Assembly: GCF_013337045.2 (NCBI RefSeq)
Contig: NZ_CP118261.1
Span: forward strand, 372,001 to 436,000
Length of the DNA stretch: 64,000 nucleotides
Reading direction: 5' to 3'
From: Agrobacterium vitis
Lineage (GTDB): Bacteria; Pseudomonadota; Alphaproteobacteria; Rhizobiales; Rhizobiaceae
This document shows positions 11,590-64,000 of the stretch, piece after piece. The notes under the pieces were generated by a model. It had not been told where the DNA came from and ran no database searches. It saw only the letters and a list, made by a program, of their open reading frames with translations. Position 1 is the first letter of the stretch. Every line of letters starts with the position of its first letter. A program made the position numbers and the translations under genes.

Positions 11590-11736
11590 TCTCGTTCCTC
11601 GTAAGAATGATATCAACCTGAACGCTACTATAAGTGTAGCATCAGCGAACGGCTTATATCACGACACAATCAGAGGCTGAGAGCAATGCAATAGCATCGG
11701 GAATAGGCCGATCTTCAGCCCCTTGGAACGTAGACA

Positions 11737-11765
11737 AGAAAGGCAGGCTCATCGCCTGCCTTTCT
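11737..11765 (-). terminator. Hairpin terminator after DUF4394 gene
   Basis: A perfect 12-base-pair stem (AGAAAGGCAGGC with GCCTGCCTTTCT) around a five-base loop, starting nine bases beyond the stop of the DUF4394 gene on the minus strand. The 3' arm ends in TTTCT in the direction of that gene, consistent with intrinsic termination. Confidence 0.75.
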
Positions 11766-11773
11766 CTTGAGTA

Positions 11774-12562: not shown

Positions 12563-12751
12563 GTTTTTCTCCCGTGCGTTCAAAATCGAAGAAGGTTCCG
12601 CCGTATGGCTCACGACCTTCCATCTTGAAGACACAACAGAAGATGCGTTTGGATGCAGCGCTCGAAAATATTTTTGGTGACTGCATCTATTCAGCTGTCG
12701 CGGCGGGTATAGTTTGCAAGAGGCAGGCGGTTTGCGCTCTGATCTAAGGAG
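12563..12751. promoter_or_regulatory. Divergent promoter region, possible ECF sigma promoters
   Basis: The 189 bases between the DUF4394 gene and the ECF sigma gene. Both directions contain a TGCATC-type hexamer (TGCATCT on plus near 12682, TGCATCC on minus near 12656), each followed after 16-18 bases by a GT-rich element (GGTATAG and GTGTCT). This could be a shared autoregulated ECF promoter pair, but spacing differs by two bases and no transcription start is known. Confidence 0.3.
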
Positions 12752-46544: not shown

Positions 46545-47435
46545 ATGCCTAAGCCATTTCGCGGTGTTTTCACCGTGATGATTACACCGATTGATGCTGA
46601 TGGAAGCGTCAATCTTCCAGCTCTTGCCGCCTTTACCGATTGGCAGATCCGTGAAGGCATTCATGGCCTGATTCCGCTCGGCTCGACGGGTGAGTTCCTC
46701 TCGCTTTCCCAAGATGATCGCGACGCAGTTGCCCGCACCGTGATTGAAACAGCAGCAGGCCGCGTCCCCGTGTTGATCGGCACAGGCGCTGAAGACACAC
46801 GCGAAGCCGTACGTCTCGCGCGCAATGCCCAAGCCATGGGTGCAGATGGTATTATGGTCATTCCTCCATTCTATTGCACACCAACAGAGGATGAATTGGT
46901 CGAGCATTACCGCGCCATTGCGGCATCGATTTCCATTCCGATCATGGTGTATAACAACCCAGCCACGGCCAATGTTGATCTCAAGCCGGAAATTTTGGCC
47001 CGCATAGCGCAGATTGATGGGTGCGACTATGTCAAGGAATCCACCCTCGAAGTCACCCGTATTCGCGACATCGTGCGTCTAGCCGGTCCATCCATGACAC
47101 CCTTTGGCGGCATTCTGGGTTTTGAGTCTTTTGTCATGGGTGCTCAAGGTTGGGTCGCCGTCGCCTCAAATATCGCGCCGGGTCCAATGTCTCGGATCTT
47201 CACATTGGCCGCAGACGAACAGAAATATGATGAGGCGCGTGCGCTCTATCTGGAATGGCTACCTCTCATTCAAGCGGTTGGCGGCCAAGCTTATGTTGCT
47301 GGATCGAAGTCCCTGCTCAATCACATGGGGTTTGCTGCGGGCTCCCCGTTGCCGCCTCGCCTTCCGTTACCTCAGGCACAAGATGCCGACATGAAATCGC
47401 TTGTCGAACGTTTCGGCCTGCGGTTTGAAAACTGA
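46545..47435 (+). CDS. DapA-family lyase (dihydrodipicolinate synthase-like)
   Basis: A 296-residue TIM-barrel aldolase/dehydratase of the DHDPS/NAL family. Residues for Schiff-base chemistry are visible: the GSTGE loop at 46-50, Tyr136 in MVYNNP and the lysine K164 in CDYVKES. Members include dihydrodipicolinate synthase, N-acetylneuraminate lyase, KDG aldolase/dehydratase and the hydroxyproline-pathway pyrroline-4-hydroxy-2-carboxylate deaminase. The neighbouring HcnABC-type dehydrogenase makes a deaminating or dehydrating role on an imino acid attractive (inference). A biosynthetic DapA is less likely in this catabolic operon. Confidence 0.88.
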   Translation: MPKPFRGVFTVMITPIDADGSVNLPALAAFTDWQIREGIHGLIPLGSTGEFLSLSQDDRDAVARTVIETAAGRVPVLIGTGAEDTREAVRLARNAQAMGADGIMVIPPFYCTPTEDELVEHYRAIAASISIPIMVYNNPATANVDLKPEILARIAQIDGCDYVKESTLEVTRIRDIVRLAGPSMTPFGGILGFESFVMGAQGWVAVASNIAPGPMSRIFTLAADEQKYDEARALYLEWLPLIQAVGGQAYVAGSKSLLNHMGFAAGSPLPPRLPLPQAQDADMKSLVERFGLRFEN

Positions 47436-47451
47436 GCAAAAGAGGATACCC

Positions 47452-50352
47452 ATGCCCGCATTGATCACGAGAGGCGCAAAAAACTCTGTCTATATTGACG
47501 GGGTTGCGCATCGAGTCGATGCTGGCATGTCCGTTGCCGCCGTTCTCAGTCACCTTGGTCAACCGGGCTTTTCAACGGATACCAAAGGTCACGGGCGCGG
47601 CCTGTTTTGTGGCATGGGTATATGCCACGAATGTCTGGTCACGGTGGATGGCCGCACAAGCCAGCGTTCCTGCATGACACCTATCCGTGATGGCATGCGT
47701 ATTGTGCGTCAACAGCCGCGCCCGGATATTGCCGAAACGGGCCTTGCCGATCTAGCACCTGTCGCGACCACACTGGCCAATCTCGACGTCGATCTGCTGA
47801 TCATCGGCGCAGGCCCCGGCGGCCTTGCAGCGGCAGAGACTGCGGCTGCCGCAGGGGTCTCTGTCATCATTGTCGATGAAAGGCACATATCAGGCGGTCA
47901 ATTTTACAAGCAACCGAGCACAGTCGACGCAACGCTTGCCCTCGACGGCGATCGTCAAGCCCGCGACGGTGCCGATCTGATCGACCGACTGCATGCTCTT
48001 GGCGTAACGATCTTATCCAGCGTGACCGTTTGGGGTGCATCCCAAGCTGCTGAGGGCCACACTGTGATTGCCTGTCATGGTGCAAAAGGTGCTTTTTATA
48101 TCAAGCCGCGCATGCTGGTTTTTGCCACCGGTGCTTTCGAGCGACCTGCGCCAATTGATGGCTGGACACTTGCAGGCGTTATGACAACCGGTGCGGCGCA
48201 AACATTGTTACGCAGTTATGGCACGCTACCTGGACGCCGAATCCTGATCGCGGGCAATGGCCCGCTCAATTTTCAGGTCGCTGCGGAAATTCACAAAGCC
48301 GGTGGCAAAATTATCTGTGTTGCGGAGCGTGCCGCCGCACCATGGAGCCGTCAACGCGAAGCGTTTGCACTGTTGCGCCAAAGCCCTGCATTGGCACTCA
48401 AAGGGTTGCGTGACATGACGCGGCTGCAGCGCTCGGGGATTAATATCGCATGGCAGACACAGGTTCGGTCCATTGAAGGAGACCAATGTGTCGCCTCGGC
48501 AACCGTGTCAGGGCCGGATGGCGAGCGCAAGATTGAAATTGATACCGTGCTCCTCGGTGGAGATTTCACCCCATCCAATGAATTATCGCGGCTTTTGGGC
48601 TGCGATCACACAGTAGCAGCAGACGGCTCGCTCATCGCAATCTGCGGTGAAGATGGTGAAAGCTCCCTTGCCCATGTGCATATTGTTGGGGAAGCGGTGC
48701 GTTTCGGCGGTGCTCATATGGCTATGGCAAGGGGTCGGCTGGCAGGGCTGTCGATCGCGAAGAAGCTGGGACATGCCATCACGACTGATCGGGAGGCCCA
48801 TCGACGGCTCGTCCGCGCAACGGCCTTTCAATCTGCCCTTTGGCGACTGTTTTCGCCGGACATCACCGCCCACCCTCCTTCCGATGATACTCTGGCCTGC
48901 CGGTGTGAAAGCATTACTTTTGGAACATTGAAGGGCCTTGCCGAACAGGGGCCACCCGATATTGCAACGCTCAAACGTGTGAGCCGTGCTGGCATGGGGC
49001 GATGCCAGGGCCGTTACTGCAACCGCACACTCACATTGCTGTCTGGGCACCCCGAAAATCACACACAAGGCTATCTGGCACCACAAATGCCGCTGAGGCC
49101 TGTGCCGCTTGCAGCATTGGCTGTCGAAAAGCCTGAATGGGGCGGCCACAAACGTGCGCTGCTGCCACACAGGCCGCCGCTTACACATTCAGAACCTCTG
49201 CCGGTACAGCAGGCCGCAACGGTCATTATCGGTGCAGGTATTGTGGGCCTATCAACAGCCCTCTTTCTGGCCGAGGCGGGCGAAGACGTTGTGGTACTTG
49301 AAAGGGGTTTTCCGGGCGGTTTGGCGTCTGGCGGCAATGCTGGAAGCCTGCACGGCCAGCTTTTATCCTTCGATCACGGTGCACGAGCCGAGGGTGACGG
49401 CACGCCCGCGGCACGAACCCTGTCATTGCAGCGCGATTCTATCCAGTTGTGGCAGTCCTTAAGCGAACGACTGGAGCGTGACTTCGAAATGAAGATCACG
49501 GGCGGTTTGATGGTTGCCGAGACAGAAGCGCATATGCGCTTTCTGGAAGAAAAGACCCGCGTTGAACGCCAAAGCGGCATAGATTGCCATGTGATCGGCA
49601 AGGACGATCTGCGCCGGTTAGAGCCATTGCTCTCGGATGCCATGATCGGTGCGGCCTACTGCCCTCAGGAAGGCAAAATCAATCCGCTGGTGGCGACGCG
49701 CCATGTGGCTGAAGCCGCCTTAACCGCAGGAGCCCGTGTTTTTGACCGCACAGATGTGCTGTCAATCCAGCATTTGGACACCGGATTTCTGATTAAGACC
49801 TCGCGCGGGGCCATTCGTGCTCGCCGCATTGTCAACGCAGCAGGCGCATTTGCCGCGCGGATTGGTGCTATGCTCGGCCTCGACGTTCCGGTTTTCGGTG
49901 CGCCGCTGCAAATGGTGGTCACTGAGGCGGCAGCACCTGCGATTTCCCACCTCATCGCCCATGCGGATCGGCATTTAACCCTGAAACAGGCTGCAAACGG
50001 CAATTTCCTGATCGGTGGCGGCTGGACCGCAGGCCTTGATCCAGTCCACAGCCATCCCAGGCCACTGTTTTCGAGCATAGAAGGCAACCTTTGGGTGGCA
50101 CAACATGTGGTGCCTAGCTTGCGAAAGCTGCATGTGATCCGCAGTTGGGCCGCGATGAACATCAACATCGACGGGGCGCCGATTCTCGGAGAGCATCCTG
50201 CTATGTCGGGCTTCTTCAACGCGGTTACGTCCAACGGCTATACACTTGGCCCTAGCGTGGGGCAGCTCACCGCAGCCCTCATTCAAGGTCGAGATCCGGG
50301 CCGTGATCTGTCTGCCTATTCCATTTCTCGGTTCCAAGGAGGTCGATCATGA
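47452..50352 (+). CDS. Single-chain HcnA-HcnB-HcnC-type flavin/iron-sulfur dehydrogenase
   Basis: A 966-residue protein joining three enzymes normally encoded separately. Residues 1-90 are a [2Fe-2S] ferredoxin-like domain (C53, C58, C61 in [11 protein letters not shown]74) as in HcnA. Residues 112-530 form an FAD/NAD(P) disulfide-reductase-like domain (GAGPGG at 119) ending in a BFD-like [2Fe-2S] site (C483, C485, C518, C523), as in HcnB. Residues 588-966 are a DAO-fold FAD oxidase (GAGIVG at 594), as in HcnC/DadA. Homologous complexes are glycine-cyanide synthase, opine oxidase and D-hydroxyproline dehydrogenase. Start 47452 follows AGAGGA; no frameshift scars. Probably oxidises an imino/amino acid for the adjacent DapA-type lyase. 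Confidence 0.9.
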
Positions 50353-51086: not shown

Positions 51087-52499
51087 ATGAGCACATTCGA
51101 CTTGATCATCAAAGGCGGCACGATTGCCACCGCATCCGATATTTTTCACGCCGACATTGGTATCCGCGATGGCAAGATCGTGCAGATTGGCGACAATCTG
51201 AATGGCGACGCGCAAACAATCAACGCCACAGGCAAATTCGTGCTGCCAGGCGGTATTGATAGCCATGTCCACATCTCCCAGCCATCGGGCGCGGGCATTG
51301 TCATGGCTGACGATTTTGAAAGTGGTACACGTTCAGCTCTGTTTGGTGGGAACACCACCATTATGCCTTTTTGCCTGCAAGAAAAAGGTCGACCCATGCG
51401 GGAGGCCCTGACTGCCTACCACGCGCTCGCAAAGGACAATTGCTATACTGATGTCAGTTTTCATCTGATCATTTCGGATCCAACGGAATCGCTCCTGGGG
51501 CAGGAACTGCCAGCACTTGTCGCGGATGGTTACGCCTCTTTGAAGGTGTTCATGACCGATGATGATCTGCGCTTGACTGACGCCGAGATCCTGAAAACGC
51601 TCGATGTTGCGCGATCAACCGGGGCGACTGTTATGGTTCATTGTGAAAACGAGGATGCGATCCGGTTTCTCATCGCACGGCATGAAGCCAACGGAGAGGT
51701 TGCACCACGCGCCCATGCTTCAACGCGGCCCGTGGCTGTCGAGCGCGAAGCGACCCACCGTGCCCTGTCGCTGGCCGAGGTTGTCGATGTCCCTATAGTC
51801 ATCGTGCATATTTCCAACGGCGAATCCATGGACGAAATTGCCCGTGCCCGCGCGCGGGGTGTCAAAGTCGTCGGCGAAACATGCCCCCAATATCTTATGC
51901 TGACGGCAGATCAATTGGACGGAATGGACTGGGAAGGGGCAAAATTTGTCTGCTCGCCGCCGCCACGCAATCAGGCTGCACAGGCAGAATGCTGGCGTGG
52001 GATTGAGATGGGCATTTTCGATCTGTTTTCATCAGACCATTGCCCATTCCGTTATGACGACGAACGCGGCAAGCTCAATCCTAAAGGGCGCGAAAATTTC
52101 CGCCATATTCCCAATGGCATACCCGGTGTGGAGACACGCCTGCCAATCCTGTTTTCCGAAGGGGTCATGACAGGACGCATTGATCTGCCGCGTTTTGTGG
52201 CCCTGTCTGCCACCAACCATGCCAAAACCTACGGACTCTATCCAGAAAAAGGCACGATTGCTATCGGCTCAGACGCCGATCTCGCGATCTGGGATCCCAC
52301 CATACAGCGCACCATTCGCCACGCGGATCTGCATGACGGCGCGGATTACTCGCCCTATGAGGGCATCCCAATCACAGGCTGGCCAACAACCATCATCCTT
52401 GGCGGCCGCATTATGGTGCGTGACGGCAAACTTCTAGGCGCAAAGGGCAATGGTGCATACCGCCCCGCCCGCACACGCAACAATGCTTTAGCAGTTTAA
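51087..52499 (+). CDS. D-hydantoinase/dihydropyrimidinase
   Basis: A 470-residue cyclic amidohydrolase of the dihydropyrimidinase family, which opens hydantoins or dihydropyrimidines to N-carbamoyl amino acids. The two-metal site is complete: H60 and H62 in DSHVHI, the lysine K153 to be carboxylated in SLKVFM, H185 in VMVHCEN, H241 in VHISNGE and D317 in SSDHCPF. It starts nine bases after the ABC ATPase and precedes DUF3830. The reaction product would suit the N-carbamoyl hydrolase-like enzyme encoded at 56727-57596. Confidence 0.9.
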   Translation: MSTFDLIIKGGTIATASDIFHADIGIRDGKIVQIGDNLNGDAQTINATGKFVLPGGIDSHVHISQPSGAGIVMADDFESGTRSALFGGNTTIMPFCLQEKGRPMREALTAYHALAKDNCYTDVSFHLIISDPTESLLGQELPALVADGYASLKVFMTDDDLRLTDAEILKTLDVARSTGATVMVHCENEDAIRFLIARHEANGEVAPRAHASTRPVAVEREATHRALSLAEVVDVPIVIVHISNGESMDEIARARARGVKVVGETCPQYLMLTADQLDGMDWEGAKFVCSPPPRNQAAQAECWRGIEMGIFDLFSSDHCPFRYDDERGKLNPKGRENFRHIPNGIPGVETRLPILFSEGVMTGRIDLPRFVALSATNHAKTYGLYPEKGTIAIGSDADLAIWDPTIQRTIRHADLHDGADYSPYEGIPITGWPTTIILGGRIMVRDGKLLGAKGNGAYRPARTRNNALAV

Positions 52500-52575
52500 A
52501 ATGCTGCATAATTTTCACCTAAAATTGGGTCTGATTTAAAAATCAAGCCCCGATCAACACTGGAGACATACCCTT

Positions 52576-52986
52576 ATGAAGCTGAAGATCACTGCCGGAA
52601 CCTTTGAATTTGACGCCATTCTGGAGACAGAAAAGGCCCCCGAAACCTCCAAAGCCTTCCTGGCGCGCATGCCATTCGAGGGCCAGATCGTGCACGTACG
52701 TTGGTCTGGAGAAGGTGTGTGGATTCCGTTGGGCGACTATAATTTTGGCGTCGGCTATGAAAACCACACGAGCCATCCCGCACCCGGCCATGTCATCCTC
52801 TATCCGGGTGGCATCAGCGAGACCGAGATTCTGATTGCCTACGGCGGTGTGGATTTCTCCTCAAAAATGGGCCAGCTTGCCGGTAACCATTTCATCACCG
52901 TGACGTCAGGTCTCGAGAAACTGGCCGAACTTGGCAAGAAGACGCTTTGGGAAGGTGCCCAGCCAATTCTGTTCGAGTTGGCTTGA
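52576..52986 (+). CDS. DUF3830 family protein (cyclophilin-like fold)
   Basis: A 136-residue protein matching DUF3830, a family with a cyclophilin-like barrel and no proven biochemical role. It begins MKLKITAGTFEFDAILETEK, contains WSGEGVWIPLGDYNFGVGYE and ends with NHFITVTSGLEKL. It is often co-located with hydantoinase and amidohydrolase genes. It is the last gene of the importer-hydantoinase operon, 76 bases after it; start 52576 has GGAG about ten bases upstream. The IS element lies 15 bases downstream. Confidence 0.75.
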   Translation: MKLKITAGTFEFDAILETEKAPETSKAFLARMPFEGQIVHVRWSGEGVWIPLGDYNFGVGYENHTSHPAPGHVILYPGGISETEILIAYGGVDFSSKMGQLAGNHFITVTSGLEKLAELGKKTLWEGAQPILFELA

Positions 52987-53019
52987 TTCCAACCGAACCA
53001 TTGAACCGCGCCGGGTTTG

Positions 53020-53938
53020 CCGGAGAGTGTTGGGTTTAAGTTATGCGGCCAATGCTGGGGTGTCCAGCATGGCGTAGCATCGCTCCTCGGCTTCGGCTGG
53101 TGGGATATTCCGATAGGCTCCAGAAGACGCCGGTTGTTGAACCAGTCGACCCATTCGAGCGTGGTGAACTCCACGGCTTCGAAGTTACGCCCCGGTCCTC
53201 GCCGGTGGATGACCTCGGCCTTGTAAAGCCCGTTGATCGTTTCGGCGAGAGCATTGTCATAACTGTCGCCGACACTTCCGACGGAAGGCTCGATGCCCGC
53301 CTCCGCCAGGCGCTCGGAATATTTGATCGACACGTATTGTACGCGGCGACCGGAATGGTGGATGAGCCTGCCGCGATGGACGGGCCGCCGGTCATGAAGT
53401 GCCTGATCGAGGGAGTCGAGGACGAAACCTGCGTGGGCGGTTCGGCTTGCTCGCCAGCCGGAGATGCGACGGGCGAATGTGTCGATCACAAAAGCCACGT
53501 AAACGAAACCCTGCCAAGTCGCAACATAGGTGAAATCGGATAACCACAGCTTGTTCGGCGCGGGAGCATGGAGCTGCCGGTTCACGCGGTCGAGCGGACA
53601 CGGTGCGGCTTTGTCCGACACGGTGGTTTTGACAGGCTTGCCACGAATGACGCCTTGAAGCCCATCGCCCTCATAAGCCGAGCAACCGTGCAGCGGGCGA
53701 TGTCGTAACCCTCCCGCTGCAACTGCCGCCAGACTTTCCGCAGGCCGTAGACCTGGAAGTTCTCATTGAACACCCGGCGTATCTCGACCTTCATGGCCAT
53801 GTCACGCCGGGCGTGGGCTGACAGGCGATCCGTGCGCTTGGCAACAATATCATAGTAGGTGGACGGGGCAATCGGCAGCAGCCTGCGGATCGGCTCGACC
53901 CCGAGCACCGAGCGGTGTTCGTCGATGAAGGAAATCAT
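53020..53938 (-). pseudogene. IS3 OrfB transposase with frameshift
   Basis: The rve-type DDE transposase of the element. One frame (53938 down to about 53600) has SFIDEHRSVLGVEPIRRLLP and VYGLRKVWRQLQREGYDIAR. A second frame, starting between 53621 and 53582, has KLWLSDFTYVATWQGFVYVA with the first catalytic Asp, and later SVGDSYDNALAETINGLYKA with the last Glu. The frames do not join, so OrfB is broken. The second frame reads on across the inverted repeat into flanking DNA to 52839. Confidence 0.8.
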
Positions 53939-54264
53939 CGCTTCAGTGGGCGGTCGAGCTCCGCCTGGGCAAAATATGCCGAGGCTTTGCGCAAAATTTC
54001 GTTCGCCTGACGAAGCTCGCGGTTTTCCCGCTCCAGAGCCTTCATCTTCTCTGAGACATCGTTTGACAGACCCGCTCGCTTGCGGCTGTCCACCTCGGAC
54101 TTCTTAACCCATTCATTGAGCGTGTGTGCCGAGCACCCTATCTTGGCGGCGATCGAGCAGACAGCCGCTCAACGCGACGGATGCTCCGCTTCTTGCTCCG
54201 CGACCATTCGAACGGCACGGGCGCGGACTTCAGGGGAGAATTTGTTCGTCGTCTTGCTTGTCAT
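53935..54264 (-). pseudogene. IS3 OrfA with internal stop codon
   Basis: A 110-codon frame starting [20 protein letters not shown], with HTH and leucine-zipper-like tail ([20 protein letters not shown]). TGA at 54171-54169 interrupts it at codon 32, where relatives have tryptophan. The 3' end overlaps the OrfB start by four bases, as in IS3 elements that use a programmed frameshift. Confidence 0.8.
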
Positions 54265-54335: not shown

Positions 54336-55298
54336 TTAAATATTCAAACAAAAATTTGATTCTCTCCGGTTTTTATGGGGCAGTTCCGCAAAAACGCTGG
54401 TTCTGTTTTTGGCCTCAGCAAAAATCCAATCCTTAAACGTCTTGACTGCTTTGGAGGCCGGCTGCAGGGGTGAAATGAGATAATAAGGATTGCGAATTGG
54501 ATATGGGTCGCCTAGCCGGATCAACTCTCCAGTTTCCAAGGCGTGCTCAATCAGAATAGAGCGCCCAAGCAGGGCCCCCATCCCCGCTTTGGCCGCTTCG
54601 ATGGCAGGGCCAGCCTGATTGAAGCGTGGGCCTTTGGCAATGTCATTGCGACTGATGCCATATTCACGCAGGTAACGGTCCCAATCTGGATATTGGCCAT
54701 TAATGCTCGCCTTGGCGCGGTCCACGTGAACAAGGGGTAACTCCCGTAAGGAGTCAAAGCTCAACTCACCAAACTCCTCAGCCATTTGCGGCGAACAAAC
54801 GGGAATAATATCCTCTTCTAATAGCAGTTCCACGCGCCGATCGAGATTGGTGTGCCAGTTGCAGATCCAGACATCGGAAGTGTCTGTCTCAATCGTCGAA
54901 CGTTCGATGAAGGTGGTCAGCGAGATATCAATTTCTGGCGCTGTACGATAAAAATTCCGCAATCTTGGCATGAGCCACAAAGAACCAACGGAAGCTGATG
55001 CGCCAACCACCAGACGCTCCGGCATGTCCACCGGCTTGTGAAGTGCGGAAATTGCATCGTCTATGATGTCCAGCGCTTCGGTAAGCTTGGCAAGGCAGGC
55101 CCGCGATTCCGGCGTCAACTCCAAGCGGCTGCTGCGGCGCAAAAACAGTTTGGTTTGTAGAAAATCTTCAAGTTGCCGGATCTGATGACTGACCGCCGTC
55201 GGCGTCACACACAATTCGTCACTGGCCTGCACAAGGCTCATGCGTCTTGCCGCCGCTTCAAAGGCCCGCACAGAGTTAAGAGGTACACGTCTTCTCAT
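54336..55298 (-). CDS. LysR-family regulator (GcvA-like)
   Basis: A 320-residue LysR regulator. N-terminal [37 protein letters not shown] (residues 11-44), typical of the GcvA branch, then the linker [13 protein letters not shown] and a periplasmic-binding-fold effector domain ([34 protein letters not shown]). Start 55298 follows GGGGAC by seven bases. It is last in a minus-strand run of isochorismatase, carbamoyl hydrolase, MFS and LysR genes, and probably controls them and the divergent RutA-like gene. It ends 21 bases from the IS element. Confidence 0.9.
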
Positions 55299-55413: not shown

Positions 55414-56718
55414 TTATTCGGCAGCTTGTGCCTTTGGGATAGGCTGCGTTCGGCCATTGGGTGCGGGACGGGTGAGATCGAAAGGAAAATACCGTCGCAT
55501 CCTGTGAAAATAGAAAAAGGCGAAAGCCGTGCCAATGCAGCACAACACACCATTGGTGAAAATGGCAGCGGATATGCCAAAATGTTCAGCGAGCACACCA
55601 GTCATCATAGCCCCAATAGGCGATGAGCCGGTAATCAGCAGATGGACCATCGATGCAAAACGCCCGCGCATCTCCGGCGGAGATTGGATCTGCAATGAAC
55701 CGGAGACCGATGTCGAAAAGGTGACTGCTGCGGCACCGACCAGCGAGAACAGCAGGCAGCTGACAACGAGGGAGCCACAGAAGGCAATGGCGATCAGCAC
55801 CAGACCAAAGCTGAGACCGGCAACCAGGATCAGTCCAACGGTTGGCTTTCGACGCCCCGTTAGCATAAATGCGGAAAAAAATGACCCCATACCAAGGCTA
55901 GAGTTCAACAGGCCGAATTCTGCAGCACCCGCATGCACCAGATAATTGGCCGCCAAAGGGACAATGGTCGTGAAGTTCTGCCCGAACATGCCAATAAAGG
56001 CTGTCGCGATCAGCAGAAACAGAATACTGGGGGTTTTGCGGGCATAGCTCAACCCTTCCGCGATCTGAGATAACATGGTGTAACGGCCGCTGAAGCGGAT
56101 GGGTTGCAGATCTCCAGCGCGGATAGATGCCAGCGCAAAGAGGATCGTGCTGCAAGTCAGCGCATTGATCAGGAACGCTGGACCGACCCCGAATGCCGCA
56201 ATCACCACACCGCCAATGGCGGGGCCAATGATGCGGCCAAGATTTTGCATCATTGACACAAGCGCAATGGCGTTGCCAAGCCTTGGCACATCAACCAGTT
56301 CGCTGACGAATGCCTGCCTTAACGGATTATCGAGTGCATTGATCACGCCCAAGCTAAGAGCCAAAAGATAGATATGCCAGAGCGCGATCGTATCTGTCAT
56401 CACCAGCACACCCAGCAACAGTGCCTGCACTGCCGCAAGGCTCTGGGTAATGGCCATCAAGCGGCGTCTTGGAAATCGGTCGGCAACCACGCCGCCCACC
56501 AATGCCAATAGCATGATCGGCAGGAATTGCAGGGATGTCACCGTGGCCAGCGCGAGCGAGGAATCGCTGAGTTTCAACACCAGCCACGCCTGCGCGGTGG
56601 TCTGCATCCATGGACCGGCAAGGGACAAGAGCAGACCGAGATAAAAGATGCGAAAATTGCGGATCTGCAAGGCTGGGAAACGGTTTGCCAGCATCAAACG
56701 GAGTGTCGTGAGAGCCAT
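55414..56718 (-). CDS. MFS transporter, EntS/DHA3-like
   Basis: A 434-residue membrane protein with twelve predicted helices. Early motif FRIFYLGLLLSLAGPWMQTTAQAWLVL and the A-motif GGVVADRFPRRRLM around residue 75 place it in the DHA3/EntS-like major facilitator group, usually exporters. PLRQAFVSELVDVPRLGNAIAL is also typical of that group. It starts eight bases after the carbamoyl-hydrolase-like gene and is probably co-transcribed. It may export or import a pathway compound. Confidence 0.88.
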   Translation of the reverse strand: MALTTLRLMLANRFPALQIRNFRIFYLGLLLSLAGPWMQTTAQAWLVLKLSDSSLALATVTSLQFLPIMLLALVGGVVADRFPRRRLMAITQSLAAVQALLLGVLVMTDTIALWHIYLLALSLGVINALDNPLRQAFVSELVDVPRLGNAIALVSMMQNLGRIIGPAIGGVVIAAFGVGPAFLINALTCSTILFALASIRAGDLQPIRFSGRYTMLSQIAEGLSYARKTPSILFLLIATAFIGMFGQNFTTIVPLAANYLVHAGAAEFGLLNSSLGMGSFFSAFMLTGRRKPTVGLILVAGLSFGLVLIAIAFCGSLVVSCLLFSLVGAAAVTFSTSVSGSLQIQSPPEMRGRFASMVHLLITGSSPIGAMMTGVLAEHFGISAAIFTNGVLCCIGTAFAFFYFHRMRRYFPFDLTRPAPNGRTQPIPKAQAAE

Positions 56719-56726
56719 TGGTGCCG

Positions 56727-57596
56727 TCAGACCGCTGCGCTCATAACATAGCTATCTGCCCGGCGATTGGCCCCGAAATCCCACCTGTCTCGAATAGACT
56801 GCTGTTTTTGTAGATCGATGTCAGCCACCACCAACTCGTCGCTCATGGTTTTCGCTTTCTTGAGAATGTTCCCATCCGGACCAATCACCACGCTGCCGCC
56901 GATGTAACGCAAACCGCCTTCCATGCCCGCTTTGCCCGCCGCAATCACATAGGTGCCGTTTGAATAGGCCCCGCCACACATGGCAAGTTCCGAGGCATGG
57001 CGGCTTGCAGACAGTGTATTGCCGGGCATGACAGGCGTGTTGTAGCCAATACAGATGACATCGACACCCTGCACAAACAGCGAGCGATAGGCCTCGGGAA
57101 AGCGTCGGTCATAGCAAATCAGTCCGCCCAGCTTCCAGGGTGTGCAGTCATAAACGGCAAATCCCTTGTCTCCGGGTGCGAAATAGCGCTTTTCCAGAAT
57201 GGTGACTTCGCCACTTTCCTTCTGCTCCACGAAGCCTGGAATATGCATTTTGCGAAAGGTGCCAACATGCTCGCCTCGGCTATTGATGAAGGCCATGGAA
57301 TTGTAGATGCGATTGCCGTTCTGCTCGGCAAACGGCAGGATCACCGTCATTGCGCAATCGCGGGCCTTGGTTGATATTGCCGAAATTGCTGCATCGTTCT
57401 CCACCTTATCGGCATATTGAGCCGCGCGGTCATGAATCGTGGCAGCAAAATAAGGCGTGAGCGCCAGCTCCGGCAACACCGCCAGCGTGATTTTTTGCTC
57501 TGCCGCCTTATCCAGCAAGGTTAGAATGCGGGAAAGAGTGGCTTTGATCGTGGCACTTGCAGGGCCAAGCTGCACGGCGGCGGCGCGGAAGGTCAT
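56727..57596 (-). CDS. N-carbamoyl-D-amino-acid hydrolase-like nitrilase-family enzyme
   Basis: A 289-residue carbon-nitrogen hydrolase. The catalytic triad is E43 in LPELALTPYF, K116 in RKMHIPG and C161 in ICYDRRFPE. Stretches LEKRYFAPGDKGFAVYD, GYNTPV and AAGKAGMEGG closely resemble Agrobacterium N-carbamoyl-D-amino-acid amidohydrolase, which releases D-amino acid, CO2 and ammonia. It is slightly shorter than that enzyme (about 304). Together with the D-hydantoinase at 51087 it would complete hydantoin-to-D-amino-acid conversion. Confidence 0.85.
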   Translation of the reverse strand: MTFRAAAVQLGPASATIKATLSRILTLLDKAAEQKITLAVLPELALTPYFAATIHDRAAQYADKVENDAAISAISTKARDCAMTVILPFAEQNGNRIYNSMAFINSRGEHVGTFRKMHIPGFVEQKESGEVTILEKRYFAPGDKGFAVYDCTPWKLGGLICYDRRFPEAYRSLFVQGVDVICIGYNTPVMPGNTLSASRHASELAMCGGAYSNGTYVIAAGKAGMEGGLRYIGGSVVIGPDGNILKKAKTMSDELVVADIDLQKQQSIRDRWDFGANRRADSYVMSAAV

Positions 57597-57605
57597 GATG
57601 GCATT

Positions 57606-57713
57606 CTTTCCAGCAAAAGCATTTCCAGAAGAAGCGGCAACCGGTTTTCCTCTGGAGAGACATAAACGAAAGAAAGAGCATTTCCGCGTTTGCGTGAAAA
57701 GTTGAAATGCTCA
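57606..57713. repeat. RIME-like intergenic mosaic repeat
   Basis: About 108 bases between two genes with the style of rhizobial intergenic mosaic elements: AAAGCATTTCCAG near 57618, then CGGCAACCGGTTTTCC, ACATAAACGAAAGAAA, and finally GAGCATTTC at 57676 inverted as GAAATGCTC at 57704-57712 around a 19-base loop. Similar mosaics are scattered in Rhizobium and Brucella-group genomes. The terminal hairpin may also affect transcription from the upstream isochorismatase gene. Confidence 0.5.
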
Positions 57714-57729
57714 CTGTTAAACATGGAGA

Positions 57730-58419
57730 TCAGGCAGCTTGGGTTTTGCGTGCACCATGACTGCTAAACTGGCTCAACGCCTCGTCTTCGCTGATCACAT
57801 CACAGATTTTAAACTGCATATCGAACAAGGCGGCCGCATGGGACATTTCGATGCGATCAAACACCGCCTCTTCGATGACCTGAATTTTATAACCAAGAGC
57901 CGTGCCATCCACAGCCGTGGCCCGCACGCAGCCGCTGGTGCTATTTCCTGCCAGTAACAGACCGTCGACACTCAGATTGCTCAACATCAAATGTAGATTG
58001 GTGAAGGCAAAACAGCTCGGGGTCTGTTTTTCCACCAGAAGATCGCCAGACTGCATGGCAACCTCTGACGGAATATCGGATTTTGCATTGCGGGCGCTGA
58101 AGTTATTGTCGGACCGCGCTTCGGGAAGACCACTGATGTCGTAGAATACATGCTTGGAGTAAATCACCGGCATCTGCGCGGCGCGTGCCGCCGCCAGCAA
58201 GCGTTGTTGCACCGGTATGGCTTTCCAGGCGTGAGGACCGCAGGCACCCGAGTAAAGATCAAGCTGCTCATAAATCGGCTTGTCGAGACCGCAGGCCGTG
58301 ACTTGCATATCAATGATCAGCAAGGCATTGCGACGGCCCGGTCCATTCAGTGGGCGCCGCGCACGCCGCGCCACCACAAGCTTGTCATCGTCAGTCAGAA
58401 ATCGATCCCACACAGCCAT
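57730..58419 (-). CDS. Isochorismatase-fold amidohydrolase (N-carbamoylsarcosine amidase-like)
   Basis: A 229-residue cysteine hydrolase. The triad is D37 in LLIIDMQV, K131 in LLVEKQTPS and C164 in [11 protein letters not shown]. The [13 protein letters not shown] start and GCVRAT motif resemble N-carbamoylsarcosine amidohydrolase and maleamate amidohydrolase; RutB (ureidoacrylate amidohydrolase) belongs to the same fold. It is divergent from the RutA-like gene with 242 bases between, so it is a candidate to hydrolyse the RutA product. Which of those activities it has cannot be told from sequence. Confidence 0.88.
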
Positions 58420-58661
58420 GCGCCTGTCCTCTTTTCCTTACAACTCTGCGCGACGGTAGAGGCAAGCGACGCTATTGGCGATTGCGATTTCCTGATGGTG
58501 GTGATGAGAAATGTTCAGCCTGTCTTTTTCACGCCGTCTGTTTAACGGCCTCCCCTGCGGGCATGAGTTTTTCTCAAGGTACAGCTTCGAATTCGTCGCT
58601 TGGCATTACACGCAAGCCGTTCAACTCTTGTCGCATAACAAGAAAAGAGAGGAACGCGCTT

Positions 58662-59765
58662 ATGACGAAGATTGGAGTTTTCATTCCCATCGGCAGCCGA
58701 GGCTGGCTGATTTCTACCACTTCACCCGCAACCATGCCGAGTTTTGAGCTCAACAAGGCGGTGGTACAGCAGGCAGAACATTACGGCCTCGATTTTGCCC
58801 TGTCGATGATCAAGCTTCGCGGTTACAATGGCCCAAGTGAATATTGGGTCCATAATCTGGAATCCTTCACCCTGATGGCCGGTTTGGCCGCCGTCACCAA
58901 GAAAATTCAGCTGTTTGCATCTGTGGCCATGTTGACCATGCCGCCCGCAGTGGTGGCACGCATGGCCGCGACGATCGATTCGATTGCGCCGGGCCGCTTT
59001 GGCATCAATATGGTCACCGGCTGGCAGCCCAAAGAATACCAGCAGATGGGCATCGAGCTGACACCCGAGCATTTTGCCCGCCGCTATGACTATGCCTCGG
59101 AATATGTGCAGGTGATGCGCGATTTATGGACCAAGGGCGTCTCCAACTTCAAGGGCGAATTCTTCCAGATGGATGACTGCAAGCTGTCGCCACGTCCATC
59201 CGCCCATATTCCAGTGGTTGGTGCGGGCCAGTCGGAACGCGGCATGCGGTTTGTGGCGGAATATGGCGACTACAACTTCATTGGTGCCGGCGGTGATATG
59301 AACCAGACCGATGGTGCCCGCACCATGGTGGCCAAGGTGGAAACCGCAGCAAAGCAAAGCGGACGCGACACCGGCGCCTTTCTGCTTTTGATGGTGATTG
59401 CCGACCGCAGCGACGAGTTGGCCTTTGCAAAATGGGAGCTTTACAAGCAGGGCACCGACATCGAAGCGCTTGAATGGCAGGCCAGTCAGGCCGGGCAGGA
59501 TACGGTCGCCAAAGAAGGCTCAACGGCCGCCGCCCTGGTGCGCCAGATCAAAAATCCGCAACCAACCGGCATGCTGAAGCTGATCGGTTCCTATGAAAAA
59601 GTCGCGGCAATGCTGGATGAAATTGCTTTGAGCACTCCAGGCCTGAAAGGCATCATGCTGACCTTTGATGACTTCGTCATCGGCATGGAGCAGTTTGGCC
59701 AATATATTCAGCCCTTGATGCGTTCCCGCAATCCCAACCTAAAACGCAATCTGGATGCAGCGTGA
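58662..59765 (+). CDS. RutA-like FMN-dependent monooxygenase (LLM class)
   Basis: A 367-residue luciferase-like flavin monooxygenase closely resembling E. coli RutA, which cleaves uracil between N3 and C4 using a flavin peroxide. Shared landmarks: [29 protein letters not shown] (here [12 protein letters not shown]), [45 protein letters not shown] and [19 protein letters not shown]. Start 58662 follows GAGAGGA by eight bases; an open frame upstream to 58350 is not similar to the family. FMNH2 would come from the RutF-like reductase at 61351. The substrate may be uracil or another cyclic amide. Confidence 0.92.
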
Positions 59766-59780
59766 GTTGAACAGAGGGTG

Positions 59781-59820
59781 AAAGCGCCGTGTCTCCATTC
59801 CAGAGTCACGGCGCTTTTTT
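59781..59820 (+). terminator. Strong bidirectional intrinsic terminator
   Basis: An 11-base-pair stem (AAAGCGCCGTG with CACGGCGCTTT) around a 15-base loop, followed by TTT, starting 15 bases after the RutA-like stop. It also lies 13 bases beyond the stop of the convergent amidase gene and can serve both. Confidence 0.88.
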
Positions 59821-59832
59821 GATGAAATCATG

Positions 59833-61137
59833 TTATTCGGCCGCCATGCTCTGTCGGTTTTGCAAGGCTGCACCCAACAAACCAGCATAGGCAATCACCT
59901 TGCGATCCTGATAGCGCTGCGCGGTCAGGGAAACCCCAACGGGCCTACCATTTGGCCCGTATAGGCCGGGAACATTGACGACAGGCACTTGCATCAGCGT
60001 CCATATCGAATTGAATATCGCATCTCCGGTTGTCTCAATACCCTTGGGTGCTTCACCGGTGGAACTCGGCGTGAGGATCACATCAAAGGATGCCGCAATA
60101 TCCTCAAATGCAGCGCGGCATTGATCGGCAAGCCGATAAGCACCCCGGGCCTGAGACGGGGTGATCGCCTCGCAATTTTCAACCATGGATTTCAGCTCAT
60201 CGTGAAGATCAGGTGTTCCATAGGCTTCATTGAGGAAGGCTGCGCGCCCCTCCCGGCGCAAGATGATATGGTGGGCGGTCAGAATGCCATCAAACATCGG
60301 GGGCAAGACAATATCCGAGACCACGGCCCCCGCCTGTTTCAGAGCGTCAATTGCTATGCTCATCGCATGTTGCGTAGCAGCCTCTGCTTTTGGCCAGGCG
60401 GGCGACAAGCAAACACCAACTCGCTTTCCGGCGAGGTCATCGGCAAGCGTCGTTTCCGGGGCATCCAGTGCAAACACATCTGCCAGAAGGGCAAGGTCAT
60501 TGGCCGAGCGGGCATAGAGGCCAAGGGTATCGCAGGTGGCGGAATACATTTTCAACCCTTCCCGGCTGATTGCATTCCAGGTTGGTTTAAAGCCGTAAAT
60601 CCCGCAAAAAGAGGCGGGACGAATGGTCGAGCCTCCCGTCTGGGTGCCAAGCGCCAGCGTTGCCTGAAAATCGGCAACCGCTGCACCCGATCCACTGGAG
60701 GAGCCGCCGGGCGTGCATGCCAGATCGTGCGGATTGCGGGTCACGCTTCCCCGGTTTGTTGTAGCAAATTCAGTGGTGACCGTCTTGCCGATCAACAGTG
60801 CTCCGGCTTGGCGCAGGGTATCGACGCAGGCGGCATCCATTCCCGGCTGGTGTCCCTGATAGCGGGCTGAATTGTGCTGCGTCGGCATATCCTTGGTGTT
60901 GATAACGTCCTTGATGGCGATGGGTACGCCATGCAGCGGCCCTTTATGGGCTGCCGTATCCAGCTGCTGTGCGGCGGCCAGAACCTGGGCGGGATCAAAG
61001 TGAGCATAGGCACGCACGGCACTGTCGCGCTCTTCAATGCGGCGGATAATCGACATTGCGATGTCGGTGACCGAGAGCTGCCCACCGTGGGTGAGGGTCG
61101 TGAGCGTGCAGGCATCCAATTGATAAGGCAATGTCAT
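59833..61137 (-). CDS. Amidase signature family hydrolase
   Basis: A 434-residue enzyme of the amidase signature family. The Ser-cisSer-Lys triad is visible: K76 in VPIAIKDV, a serine in CTPGGSSSGSGA (residues 146-148) and the nucleophile S170 in GTQTGGSTIRPA. Family members hydrolyse amides, N-acyl ureas (allophanate) or mandelamide-like compounds. Start 61137 is preferred over 61143 because AAGGA is seven bases upstream of it. It is convergent with the RutA-like gene and divergent from the RutF-like gene. It may process an amide or ureido intermediate from the same pathway. Confidence 0.88.
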   Translation of the reverse strand: MTLPYQLDACTLTTLTHGGQLSVTDIAMSIIRRIEERDSAVRAYAHFDPAQVLAAAQQLDTAAHKGPLHGVPIAIKDVINTKDMPTQHNSARYQGHQPGMDAACVDTLRQAGALLIGKTVTTEFATTNRGSVTRNPHDLACTPGGSSSGSGAAVADFQATLALGTQTGGSTIRPASFCGIYGFKPTWNAISREGLKMYSATCDTLGLYARSANDLALLADVFALDAPETTLADDLAGKRVGVCLSPAWPKAEAATQHAMSIAIDALKQAGAVVSDIVLPPMFDGILTAHHIILRREGRAAFLNEAYGTPDLHDELKSMVENCEAITPSQARGAYRLADQCRAAFEDIAASFDVILTPSSTGEAPKGIETTGDAIFNSIWTLMQVPVVNVPGLYGPNGRPVGVSLTAQRYQDRKVIAYAGLLGAALQNRQSMAAE

Positions 61138-61350
61138 TCCCATGTCCTTCTTGGTGGGTGCGATCTTGGCGCGCAGGTTACCGTTACTCTTGTTCTATGA
61201 CACGGCAGATTTTCTCACGACGCGGCTGAGAAATGGTCATTTGGCGTCTGCACTCTCGGGCAACATAGTTTCCACCGAAGACTGATGCGCATTTTTAACG
61301 TGTGTTTTGGCAAGAACCATCAAAACAGCATGAAACGGAGATGGAAAACC

Positions 61351-61854
61351 ATGGATATTGCCCGCTTCAAGCTTGGCATGCGCCGTCTGGCCTCTGGCGT
61401 GTCACTGATCACCACACTCTCTGACGGTGCGCGCCACGGATTGGTGGCAACGGCGGTCAACTCCGTCAGCGGTGATCCACCGTCGCTGCTGATCTGCGTC
61501 AACAAGAATGCCTCGGCGCATGGGCATATCGAGCGCTCCGGCATCTACTGCGTCAACATCCTGTCGGAAAGCGCCCAGCCGATTGCCGCCAGCTTTTCCA
61601 GCGTCATTGACCGGGACAAGCGGTTTTTGCGTGGTGAATGGCAGGTGCTGAAGACCGGTGCACCCGCCCTTGTTGACTCACTGGCCAGTTTCGATTGCGA
61701 GGTGCGCCACGCGCTCACCTACGCCACCCATACGATCTTCATCGCTGACATCGTCGCAACAGAGCTTTGGGACAGTACCGATGCACCATTGGTCTATCTG
61801 GATGGCCGCTATCGGCAGGTGCTGGTCGAGCCGGATATGACACCCGCTGAGTGA
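61351..61854 (+). CDS. RutF-like flavin reductase
   Basis: A 167-residue NAD(P)H:FMN reductase of the RutF/HpaC-like family. Marks are FKLGMRRLASGVSLITT, GLVATAVNSVSGDPPSLLICVN (flavin binding) and FCVNILSE-like (here YCVNILSESAQPIA), then DGRYRQVL at the end. It supplies reduced FMN to two-component monooxygenases, here probably the RutA-like enzyme 1.6 kb upstream. Start 61351 has ACGGAG about ten bases upstream; ATG 61330 is an alternative. Confidence 0.9.
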   Translation: MDIARFKLGMRRLASGVSLITTLSDGARHGLVATAVNSVSGDPPSLLICVNKNASAHGHIERSGIYCVNILSESAQPIAASFSSVIDRDKRFLRGEWQVLKTGAPALVDSLASFDCEVRHALTYATHTIFIADIVATELWDSTDAPLVYLDGRYRQVLVEPDMTPAE

Positions 61855-61946: not shown

Positions 61947-63242
61947 ATGAGCAACCAAAAGCGCAAGGGGATAACACGGCGCGGATTGATCAAAGGCGCG
62001 GCAGCGGTGGGCGGCATGGCCGCAGGGTCCGGCGCCATATCGGGATTTCCAACAATCTGGGCGCAGAATATCAAGGACGTCAAGTTGGTCCATGTTGGCC
62101 AGTCCTATTCCACCATCAAAAATATTCAGGTACAGGCCAGCAAAGATCTCGGCTTTACCATTGAAATGCAGACGGCTGACGTTGCCACCCAGATGAACCG
62201 CATGTTGACCCAGCCGGAATCGATGGACGTGGCCGACCTTGCCAATACCTCTGTACGCTATCTGCTCGGCCGCAATATTGTTCAGCCGATCACCACCAAG
62301 GAATATAAATGGTGGGATAAGACCATTTCCCTGTTTCAGACAGGCAAATATCCCAATGGCAAAATGGCCTCGCTGGAAGGATTTGCGCCGATCAAGGCGC
62401 AATATTATGCCGACAAGACCGCCAGCGCCTATTCAATGACACCGACAGAATGGCTGGTGGGTATTCCGCTCTATTATAATGCGGATACGCTGGGCGTGCG
62501 GCCCGATCTGATTGGCACGACCAAGATCGACAGTTGGGCGCGCCTGCTGGACCCCGCCTTCAAAGGCCATGTGGCGCTCCAGGAAGGTGTCAATGTCGGC
62601 CTGCCGGATGCCGCCATGGCGCTATCGGCGCTGGGCGAGGTCTCCTATGTTGACAAGGGCAATATGACCCGCAGCGAAATCGACAAAACCATCAAAAAAC
62701 TGATCGAATACAAAAAAGCCGGGCAATTCCGGTCCTTCTGGCTGAATTTCGATCAATCCGTGCAACTGATGGCCTCCGGCGAAGTGGTACTGCAATCCAT
62801 GTGGTCGCCTGCTGTGACAGAAGTACGCACGCGCGGTATTCCCTGTACATTCCAACCGCTGAAAGAGGGTCATCGCGGCTGGTACATCATGATGTTCCAG
62901 ATGCAGCACCTGACCGGGCTGAAGCGCGAGTGCGCCATTGAATACATGAACTGGTACAATTCCGGCTGGGCCGGCGCCTTCATTTCCCGCCAAGGCTTTT
63001 ACAATACCGTGCCTGAAAATGTGAAGCCGCTGATGAGCGCCAATGAATATGGCTATTGGTATGATGGCAAGCCCGCGTCCGAACCTATTCTCAACCCCTT
63101 TGGCAAGGTGATGGAAAAGCCGGGTGCGGTGCGCGACGGCGGCTCACTCTGGGATCGCATGGGCAATATCGGCATCTGGAACACGCTGATGGATGAGGAT
63201 CGCTATCTGGTGCGCCGCTGGCAGGATTTCATCGCGGCGTAA
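61947..63242 (+). CDS. Tat-exported ABC substrate-binding protein (spermidine/putrescine-type)
   Basis: A 431-residue binding protein with a twin-arginine signal (GITRRGLIKGAAAVGGMA) and cleavage near IWAQN. The mature protein follows the SBP_bac_8/PotD-type pattern: KLVHVGQSYSTIKNIQVQA, VGIPLYYNADTLGVRPD and FWLNFDQSVQLMASGEVVL. Start 61947 follows GGAG by six bases. The neighbouring PotB-like permease starts 28 bases downstream. Ligand unknown; context suggests the RutA-pathway substrate or an amine. Confidence 0.9.
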   Translation: MSNQKRKGITRRGLIKGAAAVGGMAAGSGAISGFPTIWAQNIKDVKLVHVGQSYSTIKNIQVQASKDLGFTIEMQTADVATQMNRMLTQPESMDVADLANTSVRYLLGRNIVQPITTKEYKWWDKTISLFQTGKYPNGKMASLEGFAPIKAQYYADKTASAYSMTPTEWLVGIPLYYNADTLGVRPDLIGTTKIDSWARLLDPAFKGHVALQEGVNVGLPDAAMALSALGEVSYVDKGNMTRSEIDKTIKKLIEYKKAGQFRSFWLNFDQSVQLMASGEVVLQSMWSPAVTEVRTRGIPCTFQPLKEGHRGWYIMMFQMQHLTGLKRECAIEYMNWYNSGWAGAFISRQGFYNTVPENVKPLMSANEYGYWYDGKPASEPILNPFGKVMEKPGAVRDGGSLWDRMGNIGIWNTLMDEDRYLVRRWQDFIAA

Positions 63243-63270: not shown

Positions 63271-64000
63271 ATGTCACTCTCCTCGGCAAAGCGGGTATCG
63301 CTTGTGCAAATCGCGCCGATGGCGCTGGTTCTGGTGTGTTTCGTGATCCTGCCGCTGGCGATGATCCTTGTTGTGAGTTTCATGGATTACGGTTTTGCCG
63401 AGGTAATCCCGGAATTTATCTGGGAAAATTATCTCGATATTTTCACCTCGGAACTGACGCTCAGGCTGTATCTTCAAACCTTCAAATTCCTGGCGATTGT
63501 CTGGGCCATCACGCTGTTTCTCGGCTTTACCATCGCCTATTACCTGATGTTTCATGTTCGCAGCCCCATCGTGCGGGCGCTGTGCATTGCGGCCTGCGCC
63601 ATACCGTTCTGGACATCAGGGCCAATCCGCATGGTGTCCTGGGTGCCGCTGCTGGGGCGAGAAGGGCTGGTCAATCAGGTCTTGCTGCATCTGCATATCA
63701 TAGAGCAGCCGCTCTCCTGGCTGCTCTATTCTGAATTTTCCGTCATCGTCGTCTACGTCAACGTGCTGACGTTGGCCATGTTGGGGCCGATCGCCAATTC
63801 CATGGCAAAGATTGATAAAAACCTTCTGCATGCCGCCCGCGATCAGGGGGCAAGTGAGGGACAGATCATCCGTCTGGTGATTATTCCGCTGATCAAGCCC
63901 GGCATCGCCATAGGTTCAATCTTTATTGTGACAGCGGTGATGGGTGATTTCTTCATCGTCAAGCAGATGGGCGGCGGTCAGATCAACACGGCGGTGGGGG
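63271..64000 (+). CDS. ABC transporter permease (PotB-like), 3'-partial
   Basis: An open frame from ATG 63271 (AAGGA eight bases upstream) to the window edge, about 243 residues. It is strongly hydrophobic, beginning MSLSSAKRVSLVQIAPMALV, with WAITLFLGFTIAYYLMFHV and a late EAA-type loop AARDQGASEGQIIRLVIIPL, as in PotB/BPD_transp_1 permeases. It completes the importer with the preceding Tat-exported binding protein. A second permease and an ATPase probably follow beyond the window. Confidence 0.88.
   Translation, partial: MSLSSAKRVSLVQIAPMALVLVCFVILPLAMILVVSFMDYGFAEVIPEFIWENYLDIFTSELTLRLYLQTFKFLAIVWAITLFLGFTIAYYLMFHVRSPIVRALCIAACAIPFWTSGPIRMVSWVPLLGREGLVNQVLLHLHIIEQPLSWLLYSEFSVIVVYVNVLTLAMLGPIANSMAKIDKNLLHAARDQGASEGQIIRLVIIPLIKPGIAIGSIFIVTAVMGDFFIVKQMGGGQINTAVG

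Follow-up and report, generated by a model that had tools for sequence, protein, structure and literature searches.

A likely LysR-type regulon built around a RutA-like monooxygenase in Agrobacterium vitis, probably directed at a cyclic amide other than uracil

The subject of this report is a gene module in a 64,000-nucleotide stretch of Agrobacterium vitis DNA (contig NZ_CP118261.1, positions 372,001 to 436,000; hereafter the window), centred on a RutA-like group C flavin monooxygenase and flanked on both sides by hydrolase and transporter genes. The module is real, recurs in related genomes and is apparently co-regulated. On balance, and with moderate confidence, we believe that it is a LysR-controlled catabolic regulon in which a flavin peroxide would open an imported cyclic amide other than uracil, the products then being taken apart by a series of amide hydrolyses.

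Four genes form a block on the minus strand, namely those for a LysR-type (GcvA-like) regulator (54336..55298; Pfam HTH_1 and LysR_substrate), an MFS transporter of the MFS_3 family (55414..56718; Pfam MFS_3, 202 bits), a nitrilase-superfamily hydrolase resembling N-carbamoyl-D-amino-acid hydrolases (56727..57596; Pfam CN_hydrolase) and an isochorismatase-family amidohydrolase in the slot where RutB would be expected (57730..58419). The monooxygenase gene (58662..59765, plus strand) diverges from this block; its start is supported by a 1104-bp annotated homologue on plasmid pAtS4e, the longer open reading frame in the window beginning too early. An amidase-signature hydrolase resembling malonamidase E2 (59833..61143, minus strand; Pfam Amidase) diverges in turn from a plus-strand run consisting of a flavin reductase of the HpaC/RutF superfamily (61351..61854), the solute-binding protein of a PotD-type ABC importer (61947..63242; Pfam SBP_bac_8), two permeases and an ATPase. 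The first permease (63271..64000) is cut by the window end, beyond which lie the second permease and the ATPase (approximately 64144-66102 in window numbering), as read at 10194-13103 of locus L009 and annotated on pAtS4e. All reading frames of the module are open. The five genes on which an earlier note on this DNA had built its case, for the RutA-like, flavin reductase, RutB-fold, amidase and nitrilase proteins, are all where it had put them; the MFS protein and the ABC importer that it also named do exist, just outside the span of 56727..61854 to which it had assigned the system.

Is the monooxygenase simply RutA? The related loci are a sample, for which the best 80 were taken of 117 relatives recognised by exact peptide patterns of the monooxygenase; our gene calls on L092 from Terrarubrum (labels of this kind are our own) match its annotation in nearly all genes. 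A tree built from 96 RutA-like rows puts the window protein into a clade of 24 rows from 15 loci (support 100/99), separate from a 52-row RutA clade (also 100/99) that holds the rows of all loci with RutB and RutC and includes rows of L037 and L067, from loci without these two genes. Two smaller groups, with 10 rows apiece and supports of 96/80 and 98/57, lie outside both large clades. The 24-row and 52-row groups were recovered whole in two further trees; all of these trees are unrooted (an attempted outgroup sat on a branch of length 10, by a quick method). The gene neighbourhoods follow the same division: RutB and RutC accompany the monooxygenase in 49 of the 51 loci from the RutA clade, in none of the 14 from the window's clade and in none of 15 others. 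In other words, the phylogeny that the earlier note had called for places the monooxygenase outside the RutA of rut operons, and the RutA label given by automatic annotation is likely too narrow for it. The window's clade is rare in the sampled genomes: a match at E 1e-100 turns up in 33 of 394 Rhizobiaceae genomes, and among the matches listed only A. vitis itself exceeds 60% identity, while 8 of 385 genomes of the class match at E 1e-120 and again only its own exceeds 63%. The best 120 of 3846 homologues (E 1e-100) are all at least 63% identical.

As far as the chemistry is concerned, RutA, which acts on uracil and thymine, figures in excerpts of PMC7662398 as the hallmark enzyme of flavin-N5-oxide/peroxide amide cleavage. 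Its dioxygen motif, comprising L65, T/S105, N134, V136 and F224 in RutA numbering (portions of PMC8234197 and PMC7662398), is present in the window's monooxygenase, and N134, F224 and also W139 are identical in all 96 rows. Position 105, Thr in RutA, is Ser in 24 of 24 clade rows, a substitution that as T105S leaves RutA about 80% of its activity (PMC7662398, in part). The retained pocket supports the suggestion, made in the earlier note, of a flavin-peroxide amide cleavage, as far as this can be predicted from residues. One could claim instead that no amide is cleaved at all, the monooxygenase oxidising some other small compound in the manner of SfnG or SsuD and the amidohydrolases serving unrelated nitrogen sources within the same regulon. 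This would be very improbable in our judgement: in a fold comparison of the predicted model against one library, identity is 60% to RutA and 23% to SfnG; amidohydrolases repeatedly accompany RutA-like genes; and the dioxygen pocket kept here is, according to PMC8234197, not fully shared by MsuD, SsuD and SfnG.

The clade departs from RutA in a loop placed after barrel strand 1 in the predicted model, which contains no ligand. Namely, the pair N30-N31 of RutA is Asn-Asn in all 29 rut rows chosen from the 52, position 31 is Arg in each of the 22 clade rows compared (out of 24), and Ser-Arg replaces Asn-Asn in 116 of the 120 homologues listed.

The enzymes around the monooxygenase likewise stand apart from their Rut counterparts. 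The nearest solved structures of the isochorismatase-family protein are 26st, an N-carbamoylsarcosine amidohydrolase (CSHase; E 6e-22), and 3ot4 (E 3e-19), which we take to be NicF, the maleamate amidohydrolase; RutB structures follow at E 6e-5 only, and the RutB model TIGR03614 is missed by a wide distance (35.1 bits against a cut-off of 377.95). The earlier note was thus right to place this enzyme nearer to N-carbamoylsarcosine amidase than to RutB. Its D37, K131 and C164, which have the roles of an Asp-Lys-Cys triad, are invariant across 10 aligned proteins, E. coli RutB included, and the triad therefore does not mark the CSHase subgroup. The nitrilase has its best PDB matches among the N-carbamoyl-D-amino-acid hydrolases (6lcg, E 6e-50), and the AguB model TIGR03381 is missed (162.5 against 410.25 bits). 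The amidase is closest to malonamidase E2 (1ock, E 7e-63; the next family follows at 1e-38). The flavin reductase, with 2r0x as a PDB relative (E 1.5e-29), stays below the RutF cut-off (TIGR03615, 132.6 against 254.75 bits), and the LysR protein scores 219 bits on the GcvA subfamily model, whose cut-off is 288. The MFS protein may serve export or uptake.

Taken together, these relatives suggest the following route, in which homology is the guide to the reaction, to the sequence of the hydrolytic steps and to the class of substrate. The ABC importer, perhaps together with the MFS protein, would take up a small cyclic amide, presumably a ureide or an imide, as suggested by the solved structures closest to the three hydrolases, those of N-carbamoylsarcosine amidohydrolase, N-carbamoyl-D-amino-acid hydrolase and malonamidase. 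The flavin reductase would provide reduced flavin mononucleotide (FMN); with O2 bound in the RutA-type dioxygen pocket, the monooxygenase would form a flavin-N5-peroxide, which would attack a ring amide carbonyl and open the ring to an acid with a ureido or carboxamide tail. Finally, the CSHase-like isochorismatase, the nitrilase and the amidase would strip the remaining C-N bonds, releasing ammonia and CO2 and leaving a small acid.

In a rival reading, the substrate would be a pyrimidine with a carboxylate (orotate, for example) or a trione resembling barbiturate, and the clade's Arg would bind the carboxylate; opening would yield an N-carbamoyl acid to be decarbamoylated by the nitrilase or the isochorismatase, and in the trione case the resulting malonamate would be cut by the malonamidase-like amidase. 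The invariance of Arg31 among the compared clade rows would fit this, as would the kinship of two of the hydrolases to malonamidase E2 and N-carbamoyl-D-amino-acid hydrolases. Against it, the known oxidative uracil route opens barbiturate by hydrolysis, without O2. The end products of that route are given as urea and malonic acid in excerpts of PMC7662398. We consider this reading improbable.

The strongest challenge to a substrate other than uracil comes from uracil (or thymine) itself. In this scenario, the RutA-like enzyme would form ureidoacrylate, the isochorismatase would perform the RutB step, 3-aminoacrylate would decay spontaneously, the importer would replace RutG, and the amidases would be mere side activities. 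Several observations favour it and, together with a few others, weigh against the interpretation that we prefer. The monooxygenase, the one RutA-like gene over the cut-off in its genome, passes the RutA model TIGR03612, if narrowly (506.8 against 498.3 bits, a surplus of 8.5); that said, the model also takes L092 (517.5 bits), L131 (604.7) and L130 (624.4) and therefore cannot separate the RutA-like groups. In 5 Aureimonas loci, a relative of the importer precedes the rutA-B-C-D genes of a true rut operon, with no RutG in the stretches examined, which means that a pyrimidine-like cargo would fit and that uracil stays alive as a rival. In Palleronia, a different RutA-like gene and two amidases lie near RutE and a Rid protein (below the RutC cut-off), so that clusters of the amidase type may also yield end products like those of uracil. 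Excerpts of PMC7662398 describe few side-chain contacts between RutA and uracil, and the loop changes are therefore no proof of a new substrate. Ser105 is found in 10 of 10 rows of another RutA-like group as well and so is not specific to the clade. Finally, the module is unevenly kept among relatives: a close copy of the flavin reductase occurs in only 4 of the 15 clade loci, an importer of the window's type was not found in the stretch examined of L013, L020, L022 and L023 (L022 has a Bmp-type importer instead), and the regulatory box discussed below has no exact copy in 6 of the 10 clade loci not used in deriving it (L019, L020, L022, L023, L024 and L092).

What speaks against uracil, apart from the separate clade and its divergent Ser-Arg loop, is the content of the genome, all of which (6.08 Mb, 5 contigs) was searched. 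The best scores are 111 of the required 378 bits for RutB, 47 of 169 for RutC, 62 of 238.5 for RutD and 45 of 152 for RutE, and RutG has no match at all. The RutG model exceeds its cut-off in none of 14 control genomes, so that for RutG it is the absence of any match that is telling. The claim of the earlier note that rutC, rutD, rutE and rutG are lacking consequently extends to the whole genome, none of them reaching a curated cut-off anywhere, and these genes are not merely hidden just outside the window. At the same time, the largest contig (the chromosome) carries the reductive pyrimidine-catabolism genes PreA (744.5 bits against 335), dihydropyrimidinase (593.9 against 393) and a hydantoinase/carbamoylase (393.6 against 204), with an oxidoreductase in the PreT position that receives no equivalog call, and uracil therefore seems to be covered. 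In Rhizobium etli, the beta-alanine synthase of the reductive route is reported to work (PMC7142369, in part). Moreover, the nitrilase and the malonamidase-like amidase would have no role in a uracil route. The divergent loop, the chromosomal reductive genes and the lack of RutC- and RutE-type genes together favour a substrate other than uracil, the first of the two alternatives in the earlier note, and uracil is probably not the main substrate; the passed RutA cut-off speaks on the other side. Its second alternative, uracil routed through different hydrolases, is the less favoured one and we retain it as a serious if unlikely rival.

The view of the module as one regulon draws on a T-N11-A pattern, the type used by LysR proteins. 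The box TGAGAAANNNTCA was derived from 12-base words common to the intergenic stretches of the window, L012, L014, L018 and L021, and the LysR protein is likely its reader. The window contains only three exact copies, all in the two divergent promoters of the module: TGAGAAATGTTCA (58505..58517, plus strand) and TGAGAAAAACTCA (58564..58576, minus strand) between the isochorismatase and the monooxygenase, and TGAGAAATGGTCA (61227..61239, plus strand) between the amidase and the flavin reductase. The whole genome has 12 exact boxes as against 3 copies of a reversed control pattern. With one mismatch allowed, the window has 4 boxes where 3.8 are expected, no more than chance, and only exact copies and their placement therefore carry weight.

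An exact box also precedes the RutA-like gene in L012, L013, L016 and L021, and the flavin reductase in L012 and L021. Of the 10 clade loci outside the derivation, a count that omits L011 as nearly identical to the window, 4 have an exact box upstream of the isochorismatase or monooxygenase (L013, L015, L016 with two, and L017). An exact box occurs in 7 of the 8 clade loci with a LysR gene (L018 has one with a single mismatch) and in 1 of the 7 without (L013). The 14 clade loci among the best 80 relatives hold 13 boxes in 263 kb (5 of them in loci outside the derivation) and the other 66 loci hold 6 in 1273 kb; the reversed pattern has zero copies in either group. Two loci outside the clade also have boxes. 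In L162, with a LysR protein at 53% identity, they precede the RutA-like gene and the amidase gene; L130 (LysR at 52%) has a single one, which separates an amidase from an ABC operon at a distance of 13 kb from the RutA-like gene. No box was found in four loci with GntR-type regulators (L131, as annotated, and L160, L161 and L163, by eye) or in L027, L039, L048, L053, L076, L093, L132 and L134, and a search for palindromic operators with 7-base arms revealed no shared site. Since exact boxes sit in the module's promoters and recur in related loci, the genes look like one regulon; the monooxygenase, the isochorismatase (with the nitrilase and MFS genes behind it), the amidase, the reductase and the importer likely share one regulator, as far as promoter sequences can tell.

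Could the assembly nevertheless be due to chance or decay, with no joint function? An IS3-type insertion adjoins the module and relatives reside on plasmids, which would suit such an origin. That said, the whole set from LysR to the ATPase also lies on plasmids pAtS4e and pRvVAT039a, between flanks unlike those of the window, so that the ends of the module are defined; the monooxygenase is 98.9-99.2% identical to its copies on two A. vitis/ampelinum plasmids. Large parts recur in Rhodobacterales and Terrarubrum as well. The presence of the set on two vitis plasmids and of large parts in other families argues that this is no chance neighbourhood, as do the shared box and the open reading frames, and we give the idea hardly any credence.

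The recurrence can be put in numbers for the 15 clade loci, several of which are interrupted by contig ends. The importer ATPase is present in 11, the solute-binding protein in 10 (at least 50% identical), the isochorismatase in 9 (at least 60%), the amidase in 9 (at least 35%), LysR in 8 (at least 50%), the nitrilase in 7 and the MFS protein in 5 (at least 50%); RutB, RutC, RutD and RutG are found in none. The best homologues of the RutA-like protein and of the isochorismatase (120 and 119 rows listed, respectively) share the same longest contig, as matched by its length, in 14 cases. An asparaginase-family gene occurs in four clade loci. In Terrarubrum it is accompanied by two polysaccharide-deacetylase-type genes, one of whose products is nearest to the PuuE allantoinase and to a structure of unnamed function (E approximately 1e-33) and lies far below the PuuE cut-off (144 of 425 bits).

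RutA-like genes are present in two or three copies in 9 of the 15 clade loci. In L012, L013, L014, L018, L019 and L021 all copies belong to the window's clade, L016 combines two such copies with one from a different group, and L022 and L023 have one of each. The second and third clade copies retain the full dioxygen pocket (8 of 8 rows), which would fit a serial flavin-peroxide cleavage. Namely, the paralogues lying two or three side by side in 7 of the 15 loci might cut successive amide bonds of a non-uracil ring or bicyclic compound, with amidases and CSHase-like enzymes completing the breakdown, in which case a family of O2-dependent ring-opening routes would be hidden under the RutA name. 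We offer this as a possible, rather tentative extension of the single-opening route preferred above. Two of these loci have a layout of their own: in Devosia soli (L019, 10001-13435), three RutA-like genes stand in tandem, each belonging to the window's clade and retaining the dioxygen pocket, and in L022 (3230-11784) two RutA-like genes of different groups flank a nucleobase-deaminase-type gene and the Bmp-type ABC importer, the isochorismatase there being 75% identical to the window's.

Relatives of the importer were surveyed in five plasmid regions out of 40 listed matches. One has hydantoinase, polysaccharide-deacetylase and asparaginase genes nearby (L132) and four adjoin Asp/Glu-racemase-family genes (L133, L138, L139 and L140); relatives of the importer and a RutA-like gene stand in one same-strand run in L027, L039 and L040. 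NCBIfam has no name for six proteins that are of the Asp/Glu-racemase type, or occupy the place of one, close to RutA-like genes or to relatives of the importer; a seventh, in L135, has only sub-threshold matches there, to EutA and arylmalonate decarboxylase.

How does the module compare with known systems? Like the E. coli Rut pathway, it includes a flavin reductase, a hydrolase of the isochorismatase fold and a RutA-like FMN monooxygenase whose dioxygen pocket is kept, but the monooxygenase belongs to a separate clade, the reductase and isochorismatase stay under the RutF and RutB cut-offs, and in place of RutC, RutD, RutE and RutG there are an amidase, a nitrilase, a LysR protein and an ABC importer. 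The reductive pyrimidine route (PreA, dihydropyrimidinase, beta-ureidopropionase), which uses no O2, has in common with the proposed pathway the opening of a pyrimidine-type ring followed by N-carbamoyl hydrolysis, whereas its genes are separate from the module, on the largest contig. The creatinine and nicotinate routes, through N-carbamoylsarcosine and maleamate amidohydrolase, contribute the nearest solved relatives of the isochorismatase-fold enzyme; profile scans of the module named no other gene of it as a member of these routes, the scans covering the module and not the rest of the genome. Malonamidase E2, the nearest solved relative of the amidase, comes from Bradyrhizobium. Also close in composition are the clusters of L131, L161 and L163, with a RutA-like enzyme, one or more amidases, an isochorismatase, an ABC importer and an MFS protein (and a flavin reductase in L161 and L163), but their RutA-like proteins are 57-60% identical, the importer is of another type, the regulator is GntR rather than LysR, and there is no exact box. 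Together with L160, these clusters from rhizobia and Palleronia make up another type of RutA-like locus, in which amidases, a CSHase-like isochorismatase or both are joined by an ABC importer, an MFS protein and a GntR-type regulator; L131 has RutE and a Rid protein near it. A. vitis itself has a further cluster (L124, C2 643000-662000) with two isochorismatase-family genes that reach 108-111 bits on the RutB model; amidases, an ABC importer and a nitrilase-like gene were recognised there by eye.

Outside the module, 51087-52986 encodes a D-hydantoinase/dihydropyrimidinase (TIGR02033, 522 bits against 393) and, after it, a DUF3830 protein; three genes of the dihydropyrimidinase type, this one included, exceed the cut-off genome-wide. 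This pair was considered as part of the module and rejected: tblastn found no such gene beside the module in the stretches examined of pAtS4e and pRvVAT039a. A loose link remains, homologues of both lying directly before another RutA-like gene in L044. Between the pair and the module, 52839-53980 holds, by eye, transposase-like open reading frames along with an ALIL pseudoknot (Rfam RF01497, 53864-53980), which we read as the IS3-type insertion mentioned above. Further upstream, a 983-residue open reading frame (47401-50352) appears by eye to be two FAD-dependent oxidase parts fused head to tail. Behind the importer in L009 (13382-18481) there are, again by eye, one large sigma-54-activator-like gene and one gene each resembling a zinc alcohol dehydrogenase and an FAD monooxygenase, which were not found at the corresponding place on pAtS4e.

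In the open-access library searched, as judged from titles and the openings of abstracts, we found no RutA homologue with another cyclic-amide substrate. If the clade does open other cyclic amides, flavin-peroxide amide cleavage would be wider in nature than one pathway. Many of the named homologues among those listed are called 'pyrimidine utilization protein A' or 'pyrimidine oxygenase', and genes so called would then be misnamed. The module would offer a test case for this, with two enzymes for assay, three hydrolases for the later steps and a promoter box that would report the inducer.

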